Source of the DNA: K189A clade bacterium
Lineage (GTDB): Bacteria; Pseudomonadota; Gammaproteobacteria; Pseudomonadales; Azotimanducaceae
Assembly (NCBI GenBank): GCA_902631405.1
Contig: CACOYI010000011.1
Coordinates: forward strand, 1 to 46,825
Length of the DNA: 46,825 nucleotides
Direction of reading: 5' to 3'
The position numbers and the translations under genes are program-made. Positions 7,054 through 31,491 of this stretch are shown one piece after another (the stretch's first letter is position 1; each line of letters starts with the position of its first letter). The notes beneath the pieces were generated by a model that was not told the origin of the DNA, ran no database searches, and was given only the letters and a program-made list of their open reading frames with translations.

Positions 7054-7467
7054 ATGGAAGTAAAAAACAAGGTCAATCCAAGCGAACAACAGATGGCGGA
7101 ATTCATGGAGCCGGGCCACGACGAGCCGATTTACATGTTAAATCTGCTCAAATTTAGGGAGAAGGCTTCTTATGAAGACAATCGCGAAACGACATTGAGC
7201 GGCAGAGAGGCCTACGAGATCTATGCCAAAGAAGTTGTTGAACACCTGGAAAAAGTGGGCGGAAAACCAGTCTTCGGGGCTGACGTGTCGCGCCTAATGT
7301 TGGGAGAGGTGGAGGATCTTTGGGATATGGTAGCTATCGCAATGTATCCAAATAGAAAGGCCATGCTGCAAATGATTACAGACGCCGATTATCAAAAAAG
7401 CGCTGGGCATCGAACTGCTGGTCTTGAGGGCCAACTCAATATCGAGACAAAGCTGGGAGGCTTCTAG
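7054..7467 (+). CDS. DUF1330 domain protein
   Basis: 137-residue dimeric alpha+beta barrel protein. PIYMLNLLKF opens the domain, followed by the GREAYEIYAKEV helix, GGKPVFGADV, and the WDMVAIAMYPNRKAMLQM strand-helix unit, all typical of DUF1330. No catalytic residue is established for the family. AAAGGAG ribosome site precedes the ATG. Its stop overlaps the end of the convergent CoA-transferase gene by 4 bases. It resembles the second half of the protein at 44944-45789, sharing MLN-L, a GG-x-x-x-W/F turn and the IA-x-YP motif. Confidence 0.9.
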   Translation: MEVKNKVNPSEQQMAEFMEPGHDEPIYMLNLLKFREKASYEDNRETTLSGREAYEIYAKEVVEHLEKVGGKPVFGADVSRLMLGEVEDLWDMVAIAMYPNRKAMLQMITDADYQKSAGHRTAGLEGQLNIETKLGGF

Positions 7468-8666
7468 AAATCGTCCGGCAAATCTATCCCGAACTCGGCG
7501 AACACCTCTTTGTTGTGCTCTCCTAATGTCGGTGGTGACTGATATAAGGTCGTTTTTGACCTCGAAAACTTTATTGGACTCGCCGCTAACGAGATGTCTG
7601 GGTTATCTCCCCCCGGGTTACACTTATCTAACATACCGCGTGCCGCTACATGCTCATCCTGAAAGATATCTGACATATTCTGCACGGGGCCAGCAGGTAG
7701 GCTACCGTCTAACTTGGCCATAATCTCAGCGCGGGTCAGCTGAGACGTCCAGGCGCATATCTGTTTTTCAACCCATTCAACATTCTTCAGTCGAGCCGTG
7801 TTCGTTGCACTGCGATCGTCATTGATCATATCGCCTCTCTCCATTGCTGCGCACAAAAGATCCCAATGATGAGGCTGCCCAACAGCAATAGACACTTGAC
7901 CGTCTTTTGCGGGAAACAGGTCAAAAGGGTAAAGGGTCATCGCTTTTTGCAGTCCAGATGGATTGGGTTTGCCCGTAAAAGAATACTGGGCGACCGCGCT
8001 CTTTTGGAAAGCCAACATGGCATCGTACATTGACACATCCAGAAATTGCCCTTTCCCAGAGGTCTTTGATTCGTGTATCGCTGAAACCAGACCAAGAGCC
8101 ACTAACGTGCCCGGGAAAATGTCGGCGATTGCCGGGGTTACCAATCCATCATTGGCATATACCAGTCCACCAAAGCTCTGCGCGGCAGCGTCAAGGCTCG
8201 GCCAGTGGGCATAGGGGCTTTCACCAGTCCTAGGGTCACCAAACCCTCTCACACAAGCATAAACAATTTGCTCATTCCGACCGGATATCGTTTCAAAACC
8301 CAAGCCTAGCCGCTCCATCACACCAGCCCTCATGTTTTCTATTATCGCGTCGGCCTTGTCACACAGCCTCAGAAAGATTTCTTTGTGATCATCCTTTTTC
8401 AGATCGAGGCACACACTTCTCTTGTTCCGATTAACGGAGGCAAAGGGAGCTCCAAAATCGGTAGCACCAACCTCTTCTGAGAGCGGAGAGGCATAATCAG
8501 GTAGAAAAGGCGGGATGTTGCGATAGCCGTCCCCCAAGGGGGGCTCGATCTTAATGACATTAGCGCCAAGGTCAGCTAACAAACCGGCCCCAAAGGGGCC
8601 AGCCAAAGCCCTCGTACAGTCAATAATTGTTAAGTCCTGAAGTGGGCCTTTTCGCGAGCTTGTCAC
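7464..8666 (-). CDS. CaiB/BaiF family CoA-transferase (class III)
   Basis: 400-residue class III CoA-transferase, normal length. N-terminal DLTIIDCTRALAGP, the ADLGANVIKIEPP segment and NRNKRSVCLDLK are family hallmarks. The catalytic aspartate that forms the acyl anhydride is D159 in PSLDAAAQ, aligned with the D-x-x-A-Q of formyl-CoA transferase. It moves CoA between carboxylic acids, commonly to activate a substrate before beta-oxidation-like breakdown. GTG start with AGGAG 5 bases upstream; it overlaps the VOC gene stop by 4 bases (translational coupling). Last gene of the dehalogenase/epoxide hydrolase run. Confidence 0.95.
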   Translation of the reverse strand: MTSSRKGPLQDLTIIDCTRALAGPFGAGLLADLGANVIKIEPPLGDGYRNIPPFLPDYASPLSEEVGATDFGAPFASVNRNKRSVCLDLKKDDHKEIFLRLCDKADAIIENMRAGVMERLGLGFETISGRNEQIVYACVRGFGDPRTGESPYAHWPSLDAAAQSFGGLVYANDGLVTPAIADIFPGTLVALGLVSAIHESKTSGKGQFLDVSMYDAMLAFQKSAVAQYSFTGKPNPSGLQKAMTLYPFDLFPAKDGQVSIAVGQPHHWDLLCAAMERGDMINDDRSATNTARLKNVEWVEKQICAWTSQLTRAEIMAKLDGSLPAGPVQNMSDIFQDEHVAARGMLDKCNPGGDNPDISLAASPIKFSRSKTTLYQSPPTLGEHNKEVFAEFGIDLPDDF

Positions 8667-9595
8667 GAGCTCTCCTCTTGAATCAACCGGAGCATAATAT
8701 TGCCCTCTCCACGAGTATCAAAGTATGCCTCGGATTTGTCTTGAGAACGGGCTAAAACCTCTACGCCTTTTTGTTTCAACTTATCAGTTTCTTGATCTAC
8801 ATCAGAAACCTCAAATGCTAGGTCGTTGACCCCTTCTCCGCGCCTCTTTAGCGATTCAAGATAGATACTGGCTTCGGACGTTATAGAACTAAAGTCAAAT
8901 AGGATTGGACCAACACGCAAAGATTGCCTCTCTATCTCCAGTCCGGGAACTTCTTTTTTATTATCAACTGTCGAGAATCCCAACTCCTCGTAATAGCTAA
9001 CGGCGCTATCCAAATCTCTAACTCCAATTCCAACTCCTCGAAAACGCCAGTCGTTGACCAGAGGGTGAGCTTCGTTATTCGCCTTCCAACTGCGCTCCCA
9101 ATCGGTCGGAGGGGGCCGTAAAGAGATCATCATGTTCCCAAATTTCCTGGTATCCATATAATTTTCTACTGTCCGCCCGTTGACGCGAGCGTCAAAGACA
9201 AGGGCGCAATCGTTATCCAGGAATGAATCTGTATCGCTGACGATCGTATCCGAATTGAAACAAATATGGTTTATGCCAGGGCCCTGTTTTTCCAAATACT
9301 CGCTTATGAACATTCCAGGACCTGGTCGCATAGGATAGCATTCCAGCTGACAGTCTCCGATTTGACTCTCACCATCGTTAAAAGTGTGTGCACCACCAGT
9401 CCGGTAGGTATTCGTAACCGGGTCTCCCTCAAGAGTCCTGTAGTACATCAATGAGCCCTCTCCTGGCTCATGTGGAAGCAAAGGTTGTGGGCCAACACTG
9501 ACTCCCACCCCCATGGATTGGAAATGTCGCAGGGTCGCATTTCGGTTCGTAATCATTAGCCCCACATGATTCAGTTCCCAGTTATCTCCTAACAT
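8663..9595 (-). CDS. Two-domain VOC (glyoxalase/extradiol dioxygenase superfamily) protein
   Basis: 310 residues carrying two vicinal-oxygen-chelate domains. Domain 1 (about 5-165) keeps plausible metal ligands H10, E85 and H110 (in GINHICF). In domain 2 (about 183-305) the matching positions are G and N/D (RGVGIGV, GVNDLAFEV), so only one active site is likely. Extradiol ring-cleaving enzymes have this two-domain layout but keep their iron site in the second domain, so this is not a clear extradiol dioxygenase. Sits between SDR (37-base gap) and CoA-transferase (overlap) in the same operon. Confidence 0.85.
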   Translation of the reverse strand: MLGDNWELNHVGLMITNRNATLRHFQSMGVGVSVGPQPLLPHEPGEGSLMYYRTLEGDPVTNTYRTGGAHTFNDGESQIGDCQLECYPMRPGPGMFISEYLEKQGPGINHICFNSDTIVSDTDSFLDNDCALVFDARVNGRTVENYMDTRKFGNMMISLRPPPTDWERSWKANNEAHPLVNDWRFRGVGIGVRDLDSAVSYYEELGFSTVDNKKEVPGLEIERQSLRVGPILFDFSSITSEASIYLESLKRRGEGVNDLAFEVSDVDQETDKLKQKGVEVLARSQDKSEAYFDTRGEGNIMLRLIQEESS

Positions 9596-9632
9596 TCTCT
9601 AATTCTCCAATCCACAATCGTTTTTCCAGGAA

Positions 9633-10475
9633 TCAAGCCATGTAACCACCGTCAACGCACAGTATGCTGCCCGTGACATAGCTTGAAGCGTCAGATGCAA
9701 GAAATACCGCTGCATTGGCCATTTCATCAAAAGTAGCCACCCTTCCGAGAGGCAAGCTCTCTGGTCCTGTCGACCACGCTATAAATTTCTCATGCTCAGT
9801 AGGCTCGGGAGGGGCAGATTTGGGTTGAGCAGGCTTTCGATCAGGGTTGTCTCGATAGTAGTCTCCCGAGGGATGCTGCTCCCAATCAACCAACGACGGT
9901 GCAATTGCATTCACGCGGATGTTGTACGGACCCAAGTAGCGGCAATACTGGCGAGTCATCATCGCAACACCGGCCTTCACGATAGCGTAATTACCCATTC
10001 CTTTGTCCGCATGAGCTTTCAAACCGCCTCTCGAAGTCAGGTTAATAATACTTCCGCTACGCTGCTCTTTCATGAACGGTGCTACGGCTTGGTGGGTTAA
10101 CCAATAGCCTTTTAAATTAACATTCGTGAGCTCTTCCCAATCTGCTTCATCCAACTCCGTTAGAGATTTGCGGTGGTACATAACGGCTACGTTCATCAAG
10201 ATATCTATACCTCCGAGATTTTCTACAACCTCGGCTACAAGCGAGTCTACCTCCGACTTTTTAGAAATGTCCGTCTGAATAGCCAAAGAACGACGCCCCA
10301 TCGCCTCTATCTCATCAGCCACGTTTTGCAATCGACCATCTTTTAAATTGATGTCAGTGACCGCTACATCGGCACCCGCCTCGGCCAATCCGAGAGCAAA
10401 CCCTTTCCCCATATTTCGCCGACCTCCAACCACCAGAGCCTTTTTGCCCTCCAGCGAGAAACTAGCCAGACTCAT
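9633..10475 (-). CDS. SDR family oxidoreductase with atypical nucleotide-binding loop
   Basis: 280-residue SDR. S148, Y163 and K167 (NYAIVK) form the catalytic set, and the C-terminal end VTGSILCVDGG is canonical. The glycine loop reads VGGRRNMGKG (16-25) instead of TGxxxGxG, and the NNAG motif is MNVAV (94-98). An insert at about 205-230 rich in Pro (RKPAQPKSAPPEP) precedes the cap. Strong AAAGGAG ribosome site. Placed 55 bases after the epoxide hydrolase, so oxidation of the diol it would make is the natural guess; this is inference from context. Confidence 0.9.
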   Translation of the reverse strand: MSLASFSLEGKKALVVGGRRNMGKGFALGLAEAGADVAVTDINLKDGRLQNVADEIEAMGRRSLAIQTDISKKSEVDSLVAEVVENLGGIDILMNVAVMYHRKSLTELDEADWEELTNVNLKGYWLTHQAVAPFMKEQRSGSIINLTSRGGLKAHADKGMGNYAIVKAGVAMMTRQYCRYLGPYNIRVNAIAPSLVDWEQHPSGDYYRDNPDRKPAQPKSAPPEPTEHEKFIAWSTGPESLPLGRVATFDEMANAAVFLASDASSYVTGSILCVDGGYMA

Positions 10476-10530
10476 ACCATTCTCCTTTAAAGTGAACTCA
10501 ACAAAGAGTCCGATTAAACAAAATCTGCAG

Positions 10531-11676
10531 TCAACCCACGATCGCCAACCATTTCTTTATCTCCGAGACAAAGAGATCTGGCTGCTCTAGTGCGGCAAAA
10601 TGTCCGCCACGGTCCAATTCACTCCAATAACAGATATCTGCAAAATGCTTTTCTGACCAGGATCTGGGACCCGCCATAATCTCTTTCGGGAAAACACTCA
10701 CTCCCACAGGAATTGAGATACGACCCCTATCAACAAGAATCGCACTAGGGCTGAAAGTTTCCCAATAGAGGCGAGCGGAAGAGGCAGCGGAATTTGTTAG
10801 CCAATAAAGCATTATATTGTCCAGCAACTCGTTTTTAGAAAAGATATTCTCGGGATGGCCAGAGCAGTCAGTCCACTCATAGAACTTTTCCAAGATCCAA
10901 GCGGCCTGACCAACAGGAGAATCCGCGAGCCCAAAACCAAGCGTCTGAGGCCTAGTGGATTGTTGCTTATGATAGCCAGATCCCCATTCCCGAAATTCCT
11001 CAATTCGTTTTAGAGTCTGAAGATCTCTCGGACTTGGGTTCTCAAAGGCTTCTTTGGTTGGCCCAGCAGTAGGCATGTTGACGTGTACACTTCGACAGGA
11101 ACCCAGATCTAGCGCGGCGATTGATAGTGTGATCCCCGCTCCCCAATCGCCACCCTGCGCAAAATAAATATCGTAGCCGAGCTCCTTCATAAGAGCGTCC
11201 CAAACTTTCGCGATCCGATCTACATTCCAGCCAACACCACTTGGTTTCCCTGAAAAGCCAAATCCGGGCAGCGTAGGACAGATGACGTGACAAGCGATTT
11301 TCGAATCAATGCCATATTCTACTGGATTCGTTAGCGGACCAATTATCTTTTCGAACTCCAGAAAAGAGCCAGGCCATCCGTGGGTCAGCAGGAGCGGCTT
11401 TGCATCGTCACATTTACTTTTCACTTCAACGTAGTGAATATTTATGCCTTCGATACAGAAGAGACCCTGATTAATTTTATTGAGTCTGCTTTGTGTCTCA
11501 TACCAGTCATAATCATCAATCCAATGGGAGCAAAGCTCAGCCAAATAGGCTCGCGGAACGCCCTGGGACCAATCATCAACCGTTTCTTTCTCGGGCAATC
11601 TGGTCGCGGAAAGTTTTTGTTTCAATTCGAAAATTTCCCGTTCGGGGATATCAATTTTAAAAGGATGGAAATTCAT
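10531..11676 (-). CDS. Epoxide hydrolase (EHN-domain alpha/beta hydrolase)
   Basis: 381 residues. An N-terminal EHN-type domain (FKIDIPEREIFELKQKL, about 6-100) is followed by an alpha/beta hydrolase core. Oxyanion motif HGWPGS is at 99-104, nucleophile D177 in QGGDWGA, and the general base H359 in RGGHFAALEQP. This layout is that of microsomal/juvenile-hormone-type epoxide hydrolases, which add water to epoxides to give diols. The frame is open to a TTG at 11712, but the ATG at 11676 starts at the usual family N-terminus; its ribosome site is weak. In the operon it lies 39 bases after the DUF385-like gene. Confidence 0.92.
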   Translation of the reverse strand: MNFHPFKIDIPEREIFELKQKLSATRLPEKETVDDWSQGVPRAYLAELCSHWIDDYDWYETQSRLNKINQGLFCIEGINIHYVEVKSKCDDAKPLLLTHGWPGSFLEFEKIIGPLTNPVEYGIDSKIACHVICPTLPGFGFSGKPSGVGWNVDRIAKVWDALMKELGYDIYFAQGGDWGAGITLSIAALDLGSCRSVHVNMPTAGPTKEAFENPSPRDLQTLKRIEEFREWGSGYHKQQSTRPQTLGFGLADSPVGQAAWILEKFYEWTDCSGHPENIFSKNELLDNIMLYWLTNSAASSARLYWETFSPSAILVDRGRISIPVGVSVFPKEIMAGPRSWSEKHFADICYWSELDRGGHFAALEQPDLFVSEIKKWLAIVG

Positions 11677-11715
11677 CTCAGGAGGCTCACTGAAGAAGAT
11701 ATGCTCAGTCAATTT

Positions 11716-12138
11716 CTAGATGTTATCTAACCTGAGAATTTCTCTAGGCAAAAGAGGAAAACCCATCAAGAAACGGACGGGAAGTCTTAGCGGCATAGCT
11801 TGGGCGACCCTTTCAAATTCCTCACCGGTTACGGGCACAGCAAGGTGCTCTGTCCTCTCACCATCTATGGTAACAGCGACACGCGGGTTCTCTATGGCGT
11901 TGGAGTGCCATCCCCGGGACCAATGGTGAGCAGAAACGTAAATCTTGCCCTCCAGATCCACTCGAGCAAGCATCGTATCTTTTGTATCCCCAGAGTCGGT
12001 CCGAGTAGTCAGAACTAACATCGGGATACCAGACTCTTCAAAAGAGGGTTGCGTATAACCCAGATAGCCGATCTCAAAAACCATCACCAATAAAACGTAG
12101 AAACCTAAGACACCGCTCATCCACTTTAAAGCTCTCAT
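11716..12138 (-). CDS. DUF385/nitroreductase-like split-barrel protein with N-terminal membrane anchor
   Basis: About 140 residues. One hydrophobic segment (about 9-27) is followed by a domain resembling the deazaflavin-dependent nitroreductase / DUF385 split beta-barrel: MLVLTTRTDSGDTKDTMLARV, the WHSN-x-x-ENPRVAVTIDG block and a LAVPVTGEEFERV end. Family members bind flavin or F420, but cofactor use here is unproven. The ATG at 12138 has GGGAG 7 bases upstream and is preferred over the ATG at 12156. It follows the dehalogenase-like gene by 31 bases, and both proteins have an N-terminal anchor, suggesting they sit at the same membrane. Confidence 0.65.
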   Translation of the reverse strand: MRALKWMSGVLGFYVLLVMVFEIGYLGYTQPSFEESGIPMLVLTTRTDSGDTKDTMLARVDLEGKIYVSAHHWSRGWHSNAIENPRVAVTIDGERTEHLAVPVTGEEFERVAQAMPLRLPVRFLMGFPLLPREILRLDNI

Positions 12139-12169
12139 GCTAGCTCCCATTTTCATGCAAACAAACTAT

Positions 12170-13225
12170 CTATGAATCAGAGTTAAAGCCACCCTCGCTC
12201 TCGAGTCTCAAGTAGACTCTGGTGATGGCAGACGCGATTTCTGCGGCGACTTCCTCTTGTAAGAAATGACCTGCTTGGGTCCTAGTAACTGGCGCCGATG
12301 GAAAATTCGCCTGCATAACCGGCAAAGCCTTCCCCAGAATCGGGTCGCTCATTCCCCACACAATCTCCGCTGGCACGTCTAAAGTTCCGACATACTGCTC
12401 AATCTTTCTCATTTCTTCAGCACTCTGATGATCTGGCCCATCTGTGACCATTCTCATGAGCGCTAACGGCGCTTTCTCGTTGCCACTCTCCATAACAGGT
12501 CTACCATAAAGCTCAGATATCTCAGGCGTTATAGAGGTTGGATCGCCCTGTGTTCTGTGAAGCTGATCAAAAATAGAGACCGCCACCTCTAAAAGCAACT
12601 CTCCGACGACAGGAGTTTTTACCGTTGCATGAGCTCTGGACAGGTCCATCGCCTGTCGCGGTGCATTAAATCCAGTATTCAACAAAACTGCCCCCTTCAA
12701 GCGTCCTGGCAATCGGGACAAAGCGCCCATTCCAATTGGACCGCCCCAATCTTGCCCCGAGTAAATCAATTCCTCCACTTCTAGCTGCTCAAGAACGCTT
12801 TGAATCCAGCCAATGTGATTAGCTAGCGTGTGTCGACTTGCGGGGACTTTCGAGGAGAAGCCCAAGCCAACGAGAGTAGGCATAATCACTCGCATCCGCT
12901 CAATTGGAAGCTCTTCGACTACTTTTCTATATAAGAAGCCCGAAGTAGGATTTCCATGTTGTAGGAACACCGGCAGGCCCGTACCAACCTCTAAAACATG
13001 AATTTTTATCCCTGACTCAACCTCAACGAAATAACTCTTATATTCTGGCGTTATAAATTTCTGTGCATAAGGAGGAAGTGGGAAAGCCTCAAAATCTTTG
13101 CCATTGATCACGATTTTTCCAACACCTCGCGGCGTAATAAGGCTTCCGTCTCGGGTCAAAAAAATCGAAGTGACTATCAAAACGGCTATCAAAGGTAATG
13201 CTGCCAAGGATAGTTTTTTAATCAT
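12170..13225 (-). CDS. Haloalkane dehalogenase-like alpha/beta hydrolase, membrane-anchored or exported
   Basis: 351 residues. An N-terminal hydrophobic segment (about 6-24) precedes an alpha/beta hydrolase domain. HGNPTS gives N92, SGQDWGG gives nucleophile D159 with W160 next to it, D294 lies in WGMSDP after strand 7, and H320 in AGHFLQEE. Nucleophile, His, late Asp plus halide-binding Asn and Trp is the pentad described for the HLD-III subfamily; HLD-I would need two Trp and HLD-II a Glu after strand 6. Family reaction: haloalkane plus water to alcohol plus halide. Some family-like proteins are not dehalogenases, so activity needs proof. Confidence 0.8.
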   Translation of the reverse strand: MIKKLSLAALPLIAVLIVTSIFLTRDGSLITPRGVGKIVINGKDFEAFPLPPYAQKFITPEYKSYFVEVESGIKIHVLEVGTGLPVFLQHGNPTSGFLYRKVVEELPIERMRVIMPTLVGLGFSSKVPASRHTLANHIGWIQSVLEQLEVEELIYSGQDWGGPIGMGALSRLPGRLKGAVLLNTGFNAPRQAMDLSRAHATVKTPVVGELLLEVAVSIFDQLHRTQGDPTSITPEISELYGRPVMESGNEKAPLALMRMVTDGPDHQSAEEMRKIEQYVGTLDVPAEIVWGMSDPILGKALPVMQANFPSAPVTRTQAGHFLQEEVAAEIASAITRVYLRLESEGGFNSDS

Positions 13226-13326
13226 TCCAACATCTCGACTGTTGTGTACCGCTTTACTGTCTTGCTATTAACAGGTTGGGTCAAGATCCAAAAAACTCGG
13301 AAATAATCTAATCACTTCGTCAGTTT

Positions 13327-13797
13327 TTAACCCTCCCTCTTAACCGACAACGCAAAGAACAAGATTAAAAGCCCGAATACAAAAGGTGCTCCTGAGACGC
13401 CTGGTGTCAGACCGTTTGTATAAATCCCAGTCGAGATCAAATCCTCCCTAATTAGGGGGTACAACCAAAGCCTGCCAGTCCATTCAAAAAGCCAAAACAA
13501 ATACATCAAAGGAATCAGTGATCGATAACGAAATACCACTAGCCAGCAAACCATACAAAATATCAACTGTGCGAAACCCCAAAGGGAAAAAAATCGAAAT
13601 ACTACCGGCATGGGATCAGGTTCTCCCACCAACAACACAAAGTTCGCAATATCAAAGTAACCCGTCTCCTCGAAAAGCATGTGGATAATTGATCGCCAAG
13701 TCATGAGCAACAAAAAGGCGACGAAAAACCAAAGTGCGTAACGGCTCCCCTGATAGCTATTGTCTGCTTGCTTAGGTAGCAAATTCAGTTCAAACAC
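13327..13797 (-). CDS. Hypothetical four-helix integral membrane protein
   Basis: 156 residues, unrecognised. Hydrophobic stretches at roughly 21-42, 65-90, 92-112 and 136-152 suggest four membrane helices, with acidic loop VGEPDPM and a tryptophan-rich WLFEWTGRLWLYP segment. The start is GTG with a perfect AGGAGG 5 bases upstream. It lies 101 bases upstream of the dehalogenase-like gene on the same strand and is probably the first gene of that transcript. It may be a transporter subunit, sensor or membrane partner; nothing in the sequence decides. Confidence 0.7.
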   Translation of the reverse strand: MFELNLLPKQADNSYQGSRYALWFFVAFLLLMTWRSIIHMLFEETGYFDIANFVLLVGEPDPMPVVFRFFSLWGFAQLIFCMVCWLVVFRYRSLIPLMYLFWLFEWTGRLWLYPLIREDLISTGIYTNGLTPGVSGAPFVFGLLILFFALSVKREG

Positions 13798-27545: not shown

Positions 27546-29495
27546 ATGTCGACCACGCGGCTCAAAGGAAACATTCCCGCTTATGACCAGGGCCCTCATG
27601 TAGGAGGTCACACTAAGCTCGACTGGCGAAGCCTAGGCATAATTTTTCTCTCTAGCTGGCCCCACATTCGGCCCGTTCTAAGAAGCCTATTAATTTATGC
27701 TGCTGGTGTTTTATTCGTAGTAGCCGCATTCGCTGCTAGCGGTTTTATTGGCTTTGAGGTGCTATGGGACTCCGTGGCTCAGGCCAAACCACTCTCAGAG
27801 CTCCACGCAAAGATCCTACTGCTCTCAACGGCTAACTTCGTCGAGCTGCCTGTACTAACAGAAGACCAACGCTACGAAATTCTTTGGCGCTTTATCGTTC
27901 TGACAGTTCTCCTAGCAACGGCCTTAACAACGCTTGGGACCGTACTTGATATCTATAAAGTATCTATCCTTCAACGAATCAACCAAAGCCTTAGGGTAAC
28001 GATGGTGAACCACATGAATCGCTTAAGCTTGAAGCGGCATTTCGGAGCAGAAGGTGATTCGGTTTATCGGGTTTTTCAAGATAGTGCCATGGTCACAGCT
28101 GTAATTGAGACCGTGGTTGTGATGCCAATTATCGCAATATTGCGTGCTTTTGGATTTTTAGCCTTAGCCTTTTTATTCAGTCCGTGGTTCGCCGTTCTAT
28201 TCGCTTTAGGCTTGACGACCATAATGCTCACTTTGACGGTGCAAAATAAAAAACTGAGGGAGGCCAGTTTCTCCACGAGACGGGTTAGTGGTCAACTATT
28301 AAATAAGGTTCAGGTATCCATTCAGGGGCTTTTACTATCCAAGGCCTTCGCTCGAGAATCCGATGCAACTTCGGAATTCCAGGCACTATCACATTCTGCT
28401 TTCGATCACTCTCTGTCTTTACGCACAAGAGTCGCGGCGATGAAAGCTTTGACAACTGTAACGCTCGCAATCGTTTTGCTATCAACGGATTTTTTCGCAG
28501 CTACCTATGTTTTTTCAGAACAACCCGTTTTTGGTGCCTCTCTTCTTGTTTTTTTTGGGCTCACCAGCCGTTTTTGGAGCGTCGCTGTATATCAGGCTCG
28601 AAGAGGCAACGCCGAATCCATTCAAGTAACGCTCGAAGAATTGATCAACTACTGGTGTCTCGCGCAGGATATGGCCGTCGGCCTGGGGAGAACGTGGGAG
28701 CTCCTCGCCCGCCCGCCTGGAGTTGAAGAACCAAAGGAACCCAAAAAAATACCAGACAGGATCAGGCGCCTCGATCTTTGCAACATCAACTACTCTCATG
28801 ACAAAAAGCTTACGCTAAAAGGAATTACCCTCAGAATCGATAACGGCAAACCGTGCCTGTTGGTGGGACCGTCTGGCGCCGGCAAAAGCACTTTGTTGTC
28901 ATTACTGCTCAGACTGGAGGACCCTGAAAAGGGTGATATTTTCCTTGATGGCCTATCGTTACGTGACGTGCGCCTTAGCGACTTGCGAACCACAATTGGG
29001 ATCGTGCTTCAGGAGAGCACCGTCCTGCCCCTGACACTTCGACAAAATATAGAGTACACCGCATCTGATTCTCTCTCGGATGCAGAAATGGAACGAATTC
29101 TAAAAATTGCTTGCTTAGAGAGCGTTGTTGACTCGTTGCCAAAGGGCTTGGATACAGACTTGGGGTCTGATGGAGGCCTCTTGTCTACTGGACAGAGACA
29201 GCAAGTAGCGATCGCTAGAATGATCGCAGCTGATCCCAAAGTCATTCTAATGGACGAGCCCACAGCCTCATTAGACTTAAGAACCGAAAAACAGGTGCTT
29301 AATAATCTATTGGCATGGGCCAAAGAAAAAATCGTACTAATTGTCTCTCATCAATTAGATATCGTTCAAAGTGTGAAACAAATAGGTGTGATCGAAGGGG
29401 GCCAGATAATTGCTCAGGGAGATCACCGCGAATTGCTCGAGTCTTGCGAGGTCTACTGCGTTCTTTATCAAGGGAGCGATAGCGATGGCGATTAA
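27546..29495 (+). CDS. ABC transporter half-protein (type IV exporter fold), subunit A
   Basis: 649 residues: N-terminal transmembrane domain (about 45-365) and a C-terminal ATPase domain. Walker A GPSGAGKST near 440, Q-loop VLQES, signature LSTGQRQQ near 546, Walker B VILMDEPTASLD near 570 and switch histidine in VSHQLD near 600 are intact. The signature has T where consensus is LSGGQ. Overlaps the next ABC gene by 11 bases, so the two probably form a heterodimer. Exporter type is inferred from the fused TMD-NBD form; cargo unknown. Confidence 0.93.
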   Translation: MSTTRLKGNIPAYDQGPHVGGHTKLDWRSLGIIFLSSWPHIRPVLRSLLIYAAGVLFVVAAFAASGFIGFEVLWDSVAQAKPLSELHAKILLLSTANFVELPVLTEDQRYEILWRFIVLTVLLATALTTLGTVLDIYKVSILQRINQSLRVTMVNHMNRLSLKRHFGAEGDSVYRVFQDSAMVTAVIETVVVMPIIAILRAFGFLALAFLFSPWFAVLFALGLTTIMLTLTVQNKKLREASFSTRRVSGQLLNKVQVSIQGLLLSKAFARESDATSEFQALSHSAFDHSLSLRTRVAAMKALTTVTLAIVLLSTDFFAATYVFSEQPVFGASLLVFFGLTSRFWSVAVYQARRGNAESIQVTLEELINYWCLAQDMAVGLGRTWELLARPPGVEEPKEPKKIPDRIRRLDLCNINYSHDKKLTLKGITLRIDNGKPCLLVGPSGAGKSTLLSLLLRLEDPEKGDIFLDGLSLRDVRLSDLRTTIGIVLQESTVLPLTLRQNIEYTASDSLSDAEMERILKIACLESVVDSLPKGLDTDLGSDGGLLSTGQRQQVAIARMIAADPKVILMDEPTASLDLRTEKQVLNNLLAWAKEKIVLIVSHQLDIVQSVKQIGVIEGGQIIAQGDHRELLESCEVYCVLYQGSDSDGD

Positions 29496-31491
29496 GAGGT
29501 CATTCAGTCGGGATTTTCAGACCCCCGTAAAACCAACTATTGAACCAAATCAACTCGCCACGGGAACCGCGCTAGGAAAGATTGCTCTTCGCACGCTGAG
29601 TTATATAAAACATGCACAATCTTTAGTTTTTGGCCGTATCACAGTCGGTTGCGTCATTCTCGTTGTTTCCCTTCCTATTCCTTGGTTATTTAAAATCCTA
29701 ATCGACCACGGGGTAATGGCTTTACCCGTTCTCCAAGCCGACCTTTATCCATTCTTCATGCAACCAATCTTGGATCGTTTAGTTGATCGCGAACCAATTG
29801 AAGTAGTTGGTATAGTCTGCCTTGGTCTCATCGCTATATTTGCATTATTTGGCTATGCGACGAACACAGAACTACATGCACGACTCGCTCAAGGAGCGGA
29901 TGTTGCGACCCAATCAGAAAATAAAGCGAACGATGGCTTCAGTACAGCCAGCGGGTTGGTGGGTCTTTTAGACTTTCGAATACACGTCTTGATCTCCCAA
30001 AGAATTACTCATTTTGCCAGACAGGAAATTTTCGATAAGTTCGTTCGAATGCCTGTTGTTAATATCGTCAAGCAACGTGCGGGCGATGCTGTCTTTCGTG
30101 TTATGCATGACACGCCATCAATAGGCGTGGTTTGCATGTCGATTTTAGTACAGCCTATCTTTTACCTCCTCGGCGCGTTCCTCGGACTCTGGATACTCTG
30201 GCTGGTATATGGATCGGCAGCACCTGAGTTGGTTTGGCTGGGAGCCTCTGCTTTCGCGGTCACACTTCTGTCCACTTTACCTTTTACAAGATTCATTCGC
30301 AGGCTTAGTCAAAGTAGTCGGAGATCGGGAAGTGATGTTCTCAACCTCACTGAAGAAGGAATCCGCAACAGAGAAGTCACTCAGAGCCTTGGAGCGGAAG
30401 AAAAAGAACAAGAAAAATTTAGAGAAGCTAGTCGATTCTCTTTTCGTCGCTCGCTCATCCTGATGGCTTCTTTACGCGTCATTGAGTGGCTTTCTGAGCA
30501 TGTGCACCTGCTTTTTCAATCATTCGGGTACTGGTTTATTTTCAGCAATATTATAAAAGGCAAGATGACACTGGGAGACGCGCCTGTAATTCTTCGGATG
30601 TACAGCATGCTCTATGAAACCGCAATGCAGCTAGGACGAATTTGGGTGGATCAGCAGGATCACCTCGCGGCAGCAGAACGAGTTTTCACCGTCTTAAACA
30701 AGATCGGCGAAAAACCGGAAACCTCGATAAAAAAGCGGGACCTTTCCGTGACTCATCCACCATTGGTGCGCTACGAGGACATCACTTTTGGTTACCCCGG
30801 CAACCAGCCCATTCTCAAGAAAATTAATCTGACAATCGCTGCGGGAGAGACCTTAGCTCTCGTCGGAAGAAATGGGGCTGGAAAAACGACCTTGGCTTAT
30901 CTTCTACCCCAGTTTCTCAAGCCCCAGAGCGGCCGCATTTTGTTCAACGACAGTGAGCTCGAGGCATTTCGACAGGAGTCTGTACGCAGACACGTCACCT
31001 TCATTTTCCAGGAACACCAATTCATAGATGGCTCTGTACGAGAAAATTTGCTTCTCGGCGACCCTAGTGCCACCGATGACGACTTGGTCCAAGCCTGCCG
31101 TGAGACTGCGGCCTGGGATTTCATACAAGATCTCCCCGGGGCACTTGATCATCAAATATTCGCAGACGGAACTGGTTTATCTGTCGGCCAACAACAACGC
31201 CTCTCGATCGCTCGTGCAAACTTAGGAAAATCCAAGATGCTTATATTGGATGAACCAACAGCTTCTCTAGACTTGCCAACCGAGCTCGCCCTCAAGCCCT
31301 GGATTCAGAGTGATGAGAGGACAACTCTCATTATTTCGCACCGTTTGACCACCATAAAAATGGCTGATCGTGTGGCATTTTTAGAGGATGGTCGCATTGT
31401 AGGTTGTGCTCCTCACAAAGAACTCGCAGAGACGAGCAAAGATTACGCTGAATTTATCTCGAGTTTGACGTCTTCAAATGATGACCCATAA
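29485..31491 (+). CDS. ABC transporter half-protein (type IV exporter fold), subunit B
   Basis: 668 residues starting at the ATG inside the end of subunit A, with GGGAG upstream; the frame is open to 29410. Transmembrane domain about 50-370 carries an extra segment between the first two helices (roughly 75-190, with ARLAQGADVATQSENKAND). The ATPase domain has Walker A GRNGAGKTT near 462, signature LSVGQQQR near 565, Walker B LILDEPTASLD and ISHRLTT. Both subunits keep the catalytic Glu and His, so both ATP sites may be active. Likely partner of subunit A. Confidence 0.93.
   Translation: MAIKRSFSRDFQTPVKPTIEPNQLATGTALGKIALRTLSYIKHAQSLVFGRITVGCVILVVSLPIPWLFKILIDHGVMALPVLQADLYPFFMQPILDRLVDREPIEVVGIVCLGLIAIFALFGYATNTELHARLAQGADVATQSENKANDGFSTASGLVGLLDFRIHVLISQRITHFARQEIFDKFVRMPVVNIVKQRAGDAVFRVMHDTPSIGVVCMSILVQPIFYLLGAFLGLWILWLVYGSAAPELVWLGASAFAVTLLSTLPFTRFIRRLSQSSRRSGSDVLNLTEEGIRNREVTQSLGAEEKEQEKFREASRFSFRRSLILMASLRVIEWLSEHVHLLFQSFGYWFIFSNIIKGKMTLGDAPVILRMYSMLYETAMQLGRIWVDQQDHLAAAERVFTVLNKIGEKPETSIKKRDLSVTHPPLVRYEDITFGYPGNQPILKKINLTIAAGETLALVGRNGAGKTTLAYLLPQFLKPQSGRILFNDSELEAFRQESVRRHVTFIFQEHQFIDGSVRENLLLGDPSATDDDLVQACRETAAWDFIQDLPGALDHQIFADGTGLSVGQQQRLSIARANLGKSKMLILDEPTASLDLPTELALKPWIQSDERTTLIISHRLTTIKMADRVAFLEDGRIVGCAPHKELAETSKDYAEFISSLTSSNDDP

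Follow-up and report, generated by a model that had tools for sequence, protein, structure and literature searches.

The window analysed here is a stretch of 46,825 nucleotides from a K189A clade bacterium of the Azotimanducaceae (contig CACOYI010000011.1, GenBank assembly GCA_902631405.1, forward strand). It carries a tight series of seven minus-strand genes at positions 7464-13797, and the question raised by this locus is whether these genes form one operon and whether their products act in one pathway. Both had been proposed in the initial annotation, which described a candidate operon for catabolism of a halogenated or epoxidised compound. The seven genes, named TM4, HLD, DDN, EHN, SDR, VOC2, and CaiB, are real, co-directional, and kept in the same order in two sister species, in which they probably constitute an operon. 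As judged by sequence comparison, the unit that stays together across genomes is the SDR-VOC2 pair, and the halogen/epoxide pathway is one of several options, with better support for another. The genes, in the order of the putative transcript, and one flanking gene are as follows.

TM4, 13327-13797, minus strand: first gene of the putative operon; membrane protein of 156 residues with three to four hydrophobic segments (hydropathy)
HLD, 12170-13225, minus strand: haloalkane dehalogenase-like alpha/beta hydrolase with an N-terminal hydrophobic anchor (residues 5-23)
DDN, 11716-12138, minus strand: small F420H2_quin_red-family oxidoreductase with a hydrophobic segment at the N-terminus
EHN, 10531-11676, minus strand: epoxide hydrolase; D177, Y235, Y304, E332, and H359 aligned with 6ix4
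SDR, 9633-10475, minus strand: classical short-chain dehydrogenase; GGRRNMGKG motif, S148, Y163, and K167
VOC2, 8663-9595, minus strand: two-domain VOC protein of HMS/HPPD fold
CaiB, 7464-8666, minus strand: family III coenzyme A (CoA) transferase; D182 in IADIFPG
DUF1330 protein, 7054-7467, plus strand: flanking gene outside the putative operon, convergent on CaiB

All seven open reading frames (ORFs) were found intact. Six were supported by Pfam or NCBIfam models, including the gene first called DUF385-like, which corresponds to F420H2_quin_red; TM4 had no such support. With start codons common to both species, the gaps from TM4 to CaiB measured 101, 31, 39, 55, 37, and -4 bases, in agreement with the 31-101 bases and single 4-base overlap originally reported. 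For DDN this start was the ATG common to the window and the sister, the ATG at 12156 not being common to both; for EHN the ATG at 11676 was used, although a TTG located 12 codons before it could also serve. The stop codons of the converging CaiB (7464-8666) and DUF1330 (7054-7467) genes also overlap.

The sister species (genome G390, locus L006) carries all seven genes at 87-96% identity, with gaps of 99 (TTG start) or 102 (ATG start), 33, 39, 55, 38, and -4 bases, so that the overlap of the VOC2 and CaiB frames is present there as well. Ratios of nonsynonymous to synonymous substitution (dN/dS, Nei-Gojobori, window versus sister) ranged from 0.03 (SDR) to 0.12 (HLD) at dS values of 0.48-0.87, which indicates purifying selection on all seven genes; TM4 was 93% identical, with a dN/dS of 0.067. 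A run of seven same-strand genes is not unusual by itself, and the operon is credible because order and gaps were kept at this dS; the proposed single transcription unit is likely on these grounds.

When 84,980 species genomes were scanned by pattern for the VOC protein, a search that detects close relatives only, 10 loci were returned. VOC2 was found in 14 of the 206 genomes of the window's family, its own included (E 1e-30), and 9 of these were pattern-scan loci. Together with L013, a locus labelled Deltaproteobacteria and lying outside the family set, 15 genomes with VOC2 were available for comparison. In every one, L013 included, SDR was located upstream of VOC2 on the same strand, and the two were adjacent in 14; in G381 they were 4.7 kb apart, with three ORFs between. 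At the 9 scan loci other than the sister's, identities were 77-84% for SDR and 58-68% for VOC2; no TM4, HLD, DDN, or EHN match was found at E 1e-8 in the 4.6-21 kb covered, and CaiB-family matches, present in 2 of the 9, were distant (27-29%). Over 13 of the 15 VOC2 genomes, HLD, EHN, DDN, TM4, and a close CaiB were not found around the pair in the stretches read, several of which were shortened by contig ends; the threshold was E 1e-8 for 11 genomes and E 1e-20 for G546 and G495, a level at which short, weak matches to DDN or TM4 may have escaped notice. The other five genes stood beside the pair only in the window genome (G000) and the sister, which does not bear out a single conserved halogen/epoxide pathway. 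The HLD-EHN-SDR-VOC-CaiB order, for which the initial annotation had suggested a synteny search, was not encountered beyond these close sisters among the 15 genomes, and for five of the seven genes no conserved synteny was found. A second, distant VOC2-like protein (38%) in G409 had no SDR match beside it. In wider samples of other genomes, VOC2 was found in none of 368 from the class (E 1e-20) and none of 348 from the phylum (E 1e-30); these samples contained few or no other family members. A plasmid search with VOC2 gave two weak partial matches among 72,556 records and no plasmid-borne copy, and the publications listed in literature searches included none that describes such an SDR-VOC pair.

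Homologues of the remaining genes were counted in a set of 97 relatives, the window genome included; calls of relatives and orthologues rest on identity and best matches. HLD was present in 6 (E 1e-40), TM4 in 5, that is, in 4 of the 96 others (E 1e-10), DDN in 45 (E 1e-10), EHN in 63 (E 1e-60), and CaiB in 38 (E 1e-90). Relatives of CaiB with 73-80% identity occurred in 22 genomes besides those of the window and the sister. Eleven such loci were read, of which five shared a context of AMP-ligase-like, carboxyltransferase-like, and biotin carboxylase-like genes (named by eye), and at none of the 11 did any other window gene (20 compared) match at 40% identity. Some parts do come near each other: in G370, HLD and VOC2 share a contig at a distance of 19 kb; in G412, a TM4 homologue (40%) lies 5 kb from HLD (60%) on the opposite strand; and in G381, DDN lies 5.5 kb from CaiB on the opposite strand. 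Relatives of the individual genes thus occupy separate places in other genomes, and the seven-gene order, seen in one small lineage only, looks derived.

HLD matched Abhydrolase_1 (6e-19) and an NCBIfam haloalkane dehalogenase model (1e-35, under that model's cut-off). In a profile alignment, D294 corresponded to the Asp of GMKD and H320 to the His of AGHF in DhlA, which we take to be the acid and the base. N92, D159, W160, D294, and H320 were invariant in all six aligned HLD members and match the subfamily III pentad, which an excerpt of PMC10503415 gives for DhmeA as N63, D129, W130, D258, and H286. This composition (N, D-W, D, H) is common to HLD and subfamily III (DhmeA of Haloferax mediterranei, DrbA, DmbC, and OleB), and HLD is predicted from the pentad to be subfamily III-like. 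The DhmeA chain 8ckp gave a profile match of 5e-29, although DhmeA chains ranked below several subfamily I and II chains in the profile search. The gene identities first annotated are supported, HLD being haloalkane dehalogenase-like with matches to NCBIfam dehalogenase models that stay below cut-off. In the same excerpt, subfamily III is described as having low dehalogenase activity, 'dehalogenase-like' is called the more accurate term, and OleB, a beta-lactone decarboxylase, is named as a putative member (PMC10503415). An OleB-like function was considered for HLD; ole partners were not searched for. HLD differs from the subfamily III enzymes in its N-terminal anchor. Since the hydrophobic segment is found in five of six aligned members, the sixth being read only from alignment residue 41 on, the evidence points to a membrane-anchored, perhaps periplasmic, enzyme. 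The N-terminal hydrophobic segments of HLD and DDN had not been mentioned in the initial annotation.

EHN contains the PF06441 domain (2e-34) and aligned over its full length with 5f4z (3e-105), 4i19, and 6ix4 (5e-62), which we take, from their presumed source organisms, to be Aspergillus-type or actinobacterial-type EHN epoxide hydrolases. The nucleophile D177, cap tyrosines Y235 and Y304, acid E332, and H359 were in register with those of the Aspergillus-type 6ix4, presumably as an Asp-Glu/Asp-His triad with two cap tyrosines. Domain and residues agree in predicting an EHN-type epoxide hydrolase, as first annotated. SDR matched adh_short_C2 (1e-54), its S148, Y163, and K167 being presumably catalytic, and no NCBIfam model was above cut-off among the best 25 of 226. 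CaiB matched CoA_transf_3 (PF02515, 5e-98) and has D182 as candidate catalytic Asp, a role that we assume; it is a predicted family III CoA-transferase, for which all seven NCBIfam substrate models listed were far below cut-off.

VOC2 matched Glyoxalase_4 (3e-14) and has the two-domain VOC fold of HMS and HPPD, a known oxygenase fold; the 50 structural matches listed were all HMS or HPPD, and other VOC families may follow beyond them. Candidate metal ligands H10, E85, and H110 were located in the N-terminal half. None was recognised in the C-terminal half, where His/His/Glu are missing by alignment and a 2-His-1-Glu site, as in HPPD and HMS, was not found; HMS His241, presumably a metal ligand, aligns with D258. 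When compared with HMS (2r5v) and HPPD (1t47), the candidate ligands of VOC2 are N-terminal, whereas the metal site of HPPD is in the C-terminal domain according to an excerpt of PMC6750108. It is possible, although we would sooner expect otherwise, that VOC2 is an 'inverted' HPPD-fold metalloenzyme of an unrecognised SDR-VOC2 catabolic module that was recruited here into a new operon. The site would then consist of H10, E85, and H110, with an invariant serine in place of the usual fourth ligand; the C-terminal half, which is the catalytic one in HPPD, would be without ligands; and the recruiting operon would supply an epoxide hydrolase, a CoA-transferase, and a dehalogenase-like hydrolase anchored in the membrane. 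An assignment of VOC2 as an extradiol dioxygenase was not adopted, since the sequence matches listed from Pfam, NCBIfam, and PDB included no such enzyme and the ligand positions differ. Biphenyl-type catabolism combines a Rieske oxygenase, an SDR dihydrodiol dehydrogenase, and a two-domain VOC extradiol dioxygenase; a Rieske protein follows SDR-VOC2 in three genomes, whereas none is next to the window pair.

DDN matched F420H2_quin_red weakly (PF04075, 4e-7) and TIGR00026 below cut-off, carries one N-terminal hydrophobic segment (hydropathy), and gave nothing at E 0.01 in a PDB sequence search. A supply of F420 in the lineage is likely because 36 of the 39 other genus members, among them the sister, had a cofD match (30 over the cut-off of a model that also matches E. 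coli below it; G403 has a fragment only). Among the 97 relatives, this F420 biosynthesis gene was matched in 71, with 64 over cut-off. An LLM-class oxidoreductase at 1875-2906, near the F420-dependent TIGR03560 (208 bits versus a cut-off of 231), might be another F420-using enzyme of the window. TM4 had no Pfam match, even at E 10. It was initially described as a four-helix membrane protein; the membrane protein holds, and hydropathy gives three clear hydrophobic regions, of which the middle one could span two helices. At L135 (G390, contig C46, ORFs 7-8), paralogues of DUF1330 (61%) and TM4 (55%) adjoin on one strand, followed by DUF2855-like and Rieske-like proteins (the last two named by eye), and DUF1330 and TM4 may be partners.

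The neighbourhood of the pair in the genus was also compared. In six members (G370, G372, G381, G382, G385, and G402), the pair occurs with a D-aminoacylase-like hydrolase and a quinone oxidoreductase. A large conserved locus surrounds it in G370, G372, and G382 (L041, L049, and L160), which add a Rieske oxygenase, an MFS_2 transporter, a BNR protein, a CmcJ/NvfI-family protein, a PtlE-like Baeyer-Villiger-type monooxygenase (617 bits versus a cut-off of 1100), a fused biotin-dependent carboxylase, and a double CaiB; families were called on the copies of G372 (L010). In G402 an alpha/beta hydrolase takes the Rieske position. None of these partners was found in the G423 and G495 genomes except a 28% carboxylase match in G495. 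The setting in the six members suggests alicyclic or terpenoid-like catabolism.

The explanation that we favour, and to which we give an even chance, is a recently assembled catabolic cassette whose substrate would be hydrophobic and oxygenated, possibly of an alicyclic or terpenoid-like type. HLD, as a membrane-anchored and possibly periplasm-facing enzyme, would perform a hydrolytic entry step (on a lactone, ester, or halide); EHN would convert an epoxide intermediate to a diol; SDR would use NAD(P) to turn a hydroxyl into a carbonyl; VOC2, with a metal, would isomerise or oxygenate the resulting hydroxy-ketone or enol; and CaiB would load the resulting acid on CoA. TM4 and DDN would be membrane-bound accessories, DDN probably with F420. 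Comparative support is limited to the SDR-VOC2 coupling; for the remaining steps, both order and substrates are guessed from the protein families. Several observations weigh against this explanation. Nine flanking genes are equally collinear in the sister (dN/dS 0.03-0.09), and synteny with the sister therefore shows real genes in a stable region and by itself no pathway; the two genomes are also close relatives and so represent one assembly event. Evidence for the alicyclic component comes from gene neighbours in other genomes and not from the window itself. Within the cluster neither a transporter nor a regulator could be recognised, and no cofD match was found in the window's own assembly, which is 73% complete. 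A promoter scan gave 10 promoter-like sites versus 8.3 (standard deviation 3.9) in shuffles, not above chance as a class; one of the best, at 8721-8694 on the minus strand (10 of 12), lies directly before CaiB and would fit a promoter of its own, and another at 11681-11654 (9 of 12) overlaps the EHN start.

The site before CaiB would suit a division into two or three units, in which TM4-HLD-DDN-EHN happens to sit upstream of SDR-VOC2 and CaiB possibly has its own promoter. The sub-groups do differ in their relatives, and the opposite-strand TM4 and HLD homologues of G412 agree with this; however, the EHN-SDR gap is just 55 bases in both species, with no terminator-like site inside it (the terminator scan gave 3 such sites versus 7.4 in shuffles, and both scans are of limited value), and we regard the division as unlikely. 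The genes might instead be a set of detoxification functions under one promoter, sharing regulation by reactive lipophilic compounds and no pathway. The window does contain GST-like and aldo-keto-reductase-like genes (by eye) and further VOC and SDR genes, homologues of HLD, EHN, DDN, and CaiB are at separate places in the genus, and the lack of a recognised transporter or regulator in the operon fits as well; CaiB and the conserved SDR-VOC2 pair, however, favour assimilation over detoxification, and the VOC2/CaiB frame overlap in both species also speaks against this account, which is somewhat unlikely.

The pathway originally proposed, in which HLD removes halide and EHN opens an epoxide, followed by SDR, VOC, and CoA activation, draws on the full epoxide hydrolase residues of EHN, the five-residue set of HLD, and a spacing that fits one operon. 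Around the close relatives of HLD (60-70%) in G424, G370, and G412, however, the 15-20 kb examined contained nothing that matched EHN, VOC2, or CaiB at E 1e-8, and the sole SDR match there was generic (31%, 8 kb away); in G370, HLD shares the VOC2 contig, yet at 19 kb. The low dehalogenase activity given for subfamily III in the excerpt of PMC10503415 is a further difficulty. HLD and EHN acting on one substrate would fit a halohydrin route, for which halohydrin dehalogenase was not searched for. This pathway is judged unlikely.

Elsewhere in the window, two overlapping ORFs at 27546-31491 resemble ABC exporter half-transporters (by eye) and perhaps form a heterodimer.

A chemically coherent gene list is no pathway when relatives show its parts living apart. 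What the comparison does single out, as a target for enzymology, is the pair of an SDR and an uncharacterised VOC protein of HPPD fold, which in this analysis was almost confined to a single gammaproteobacterial family.

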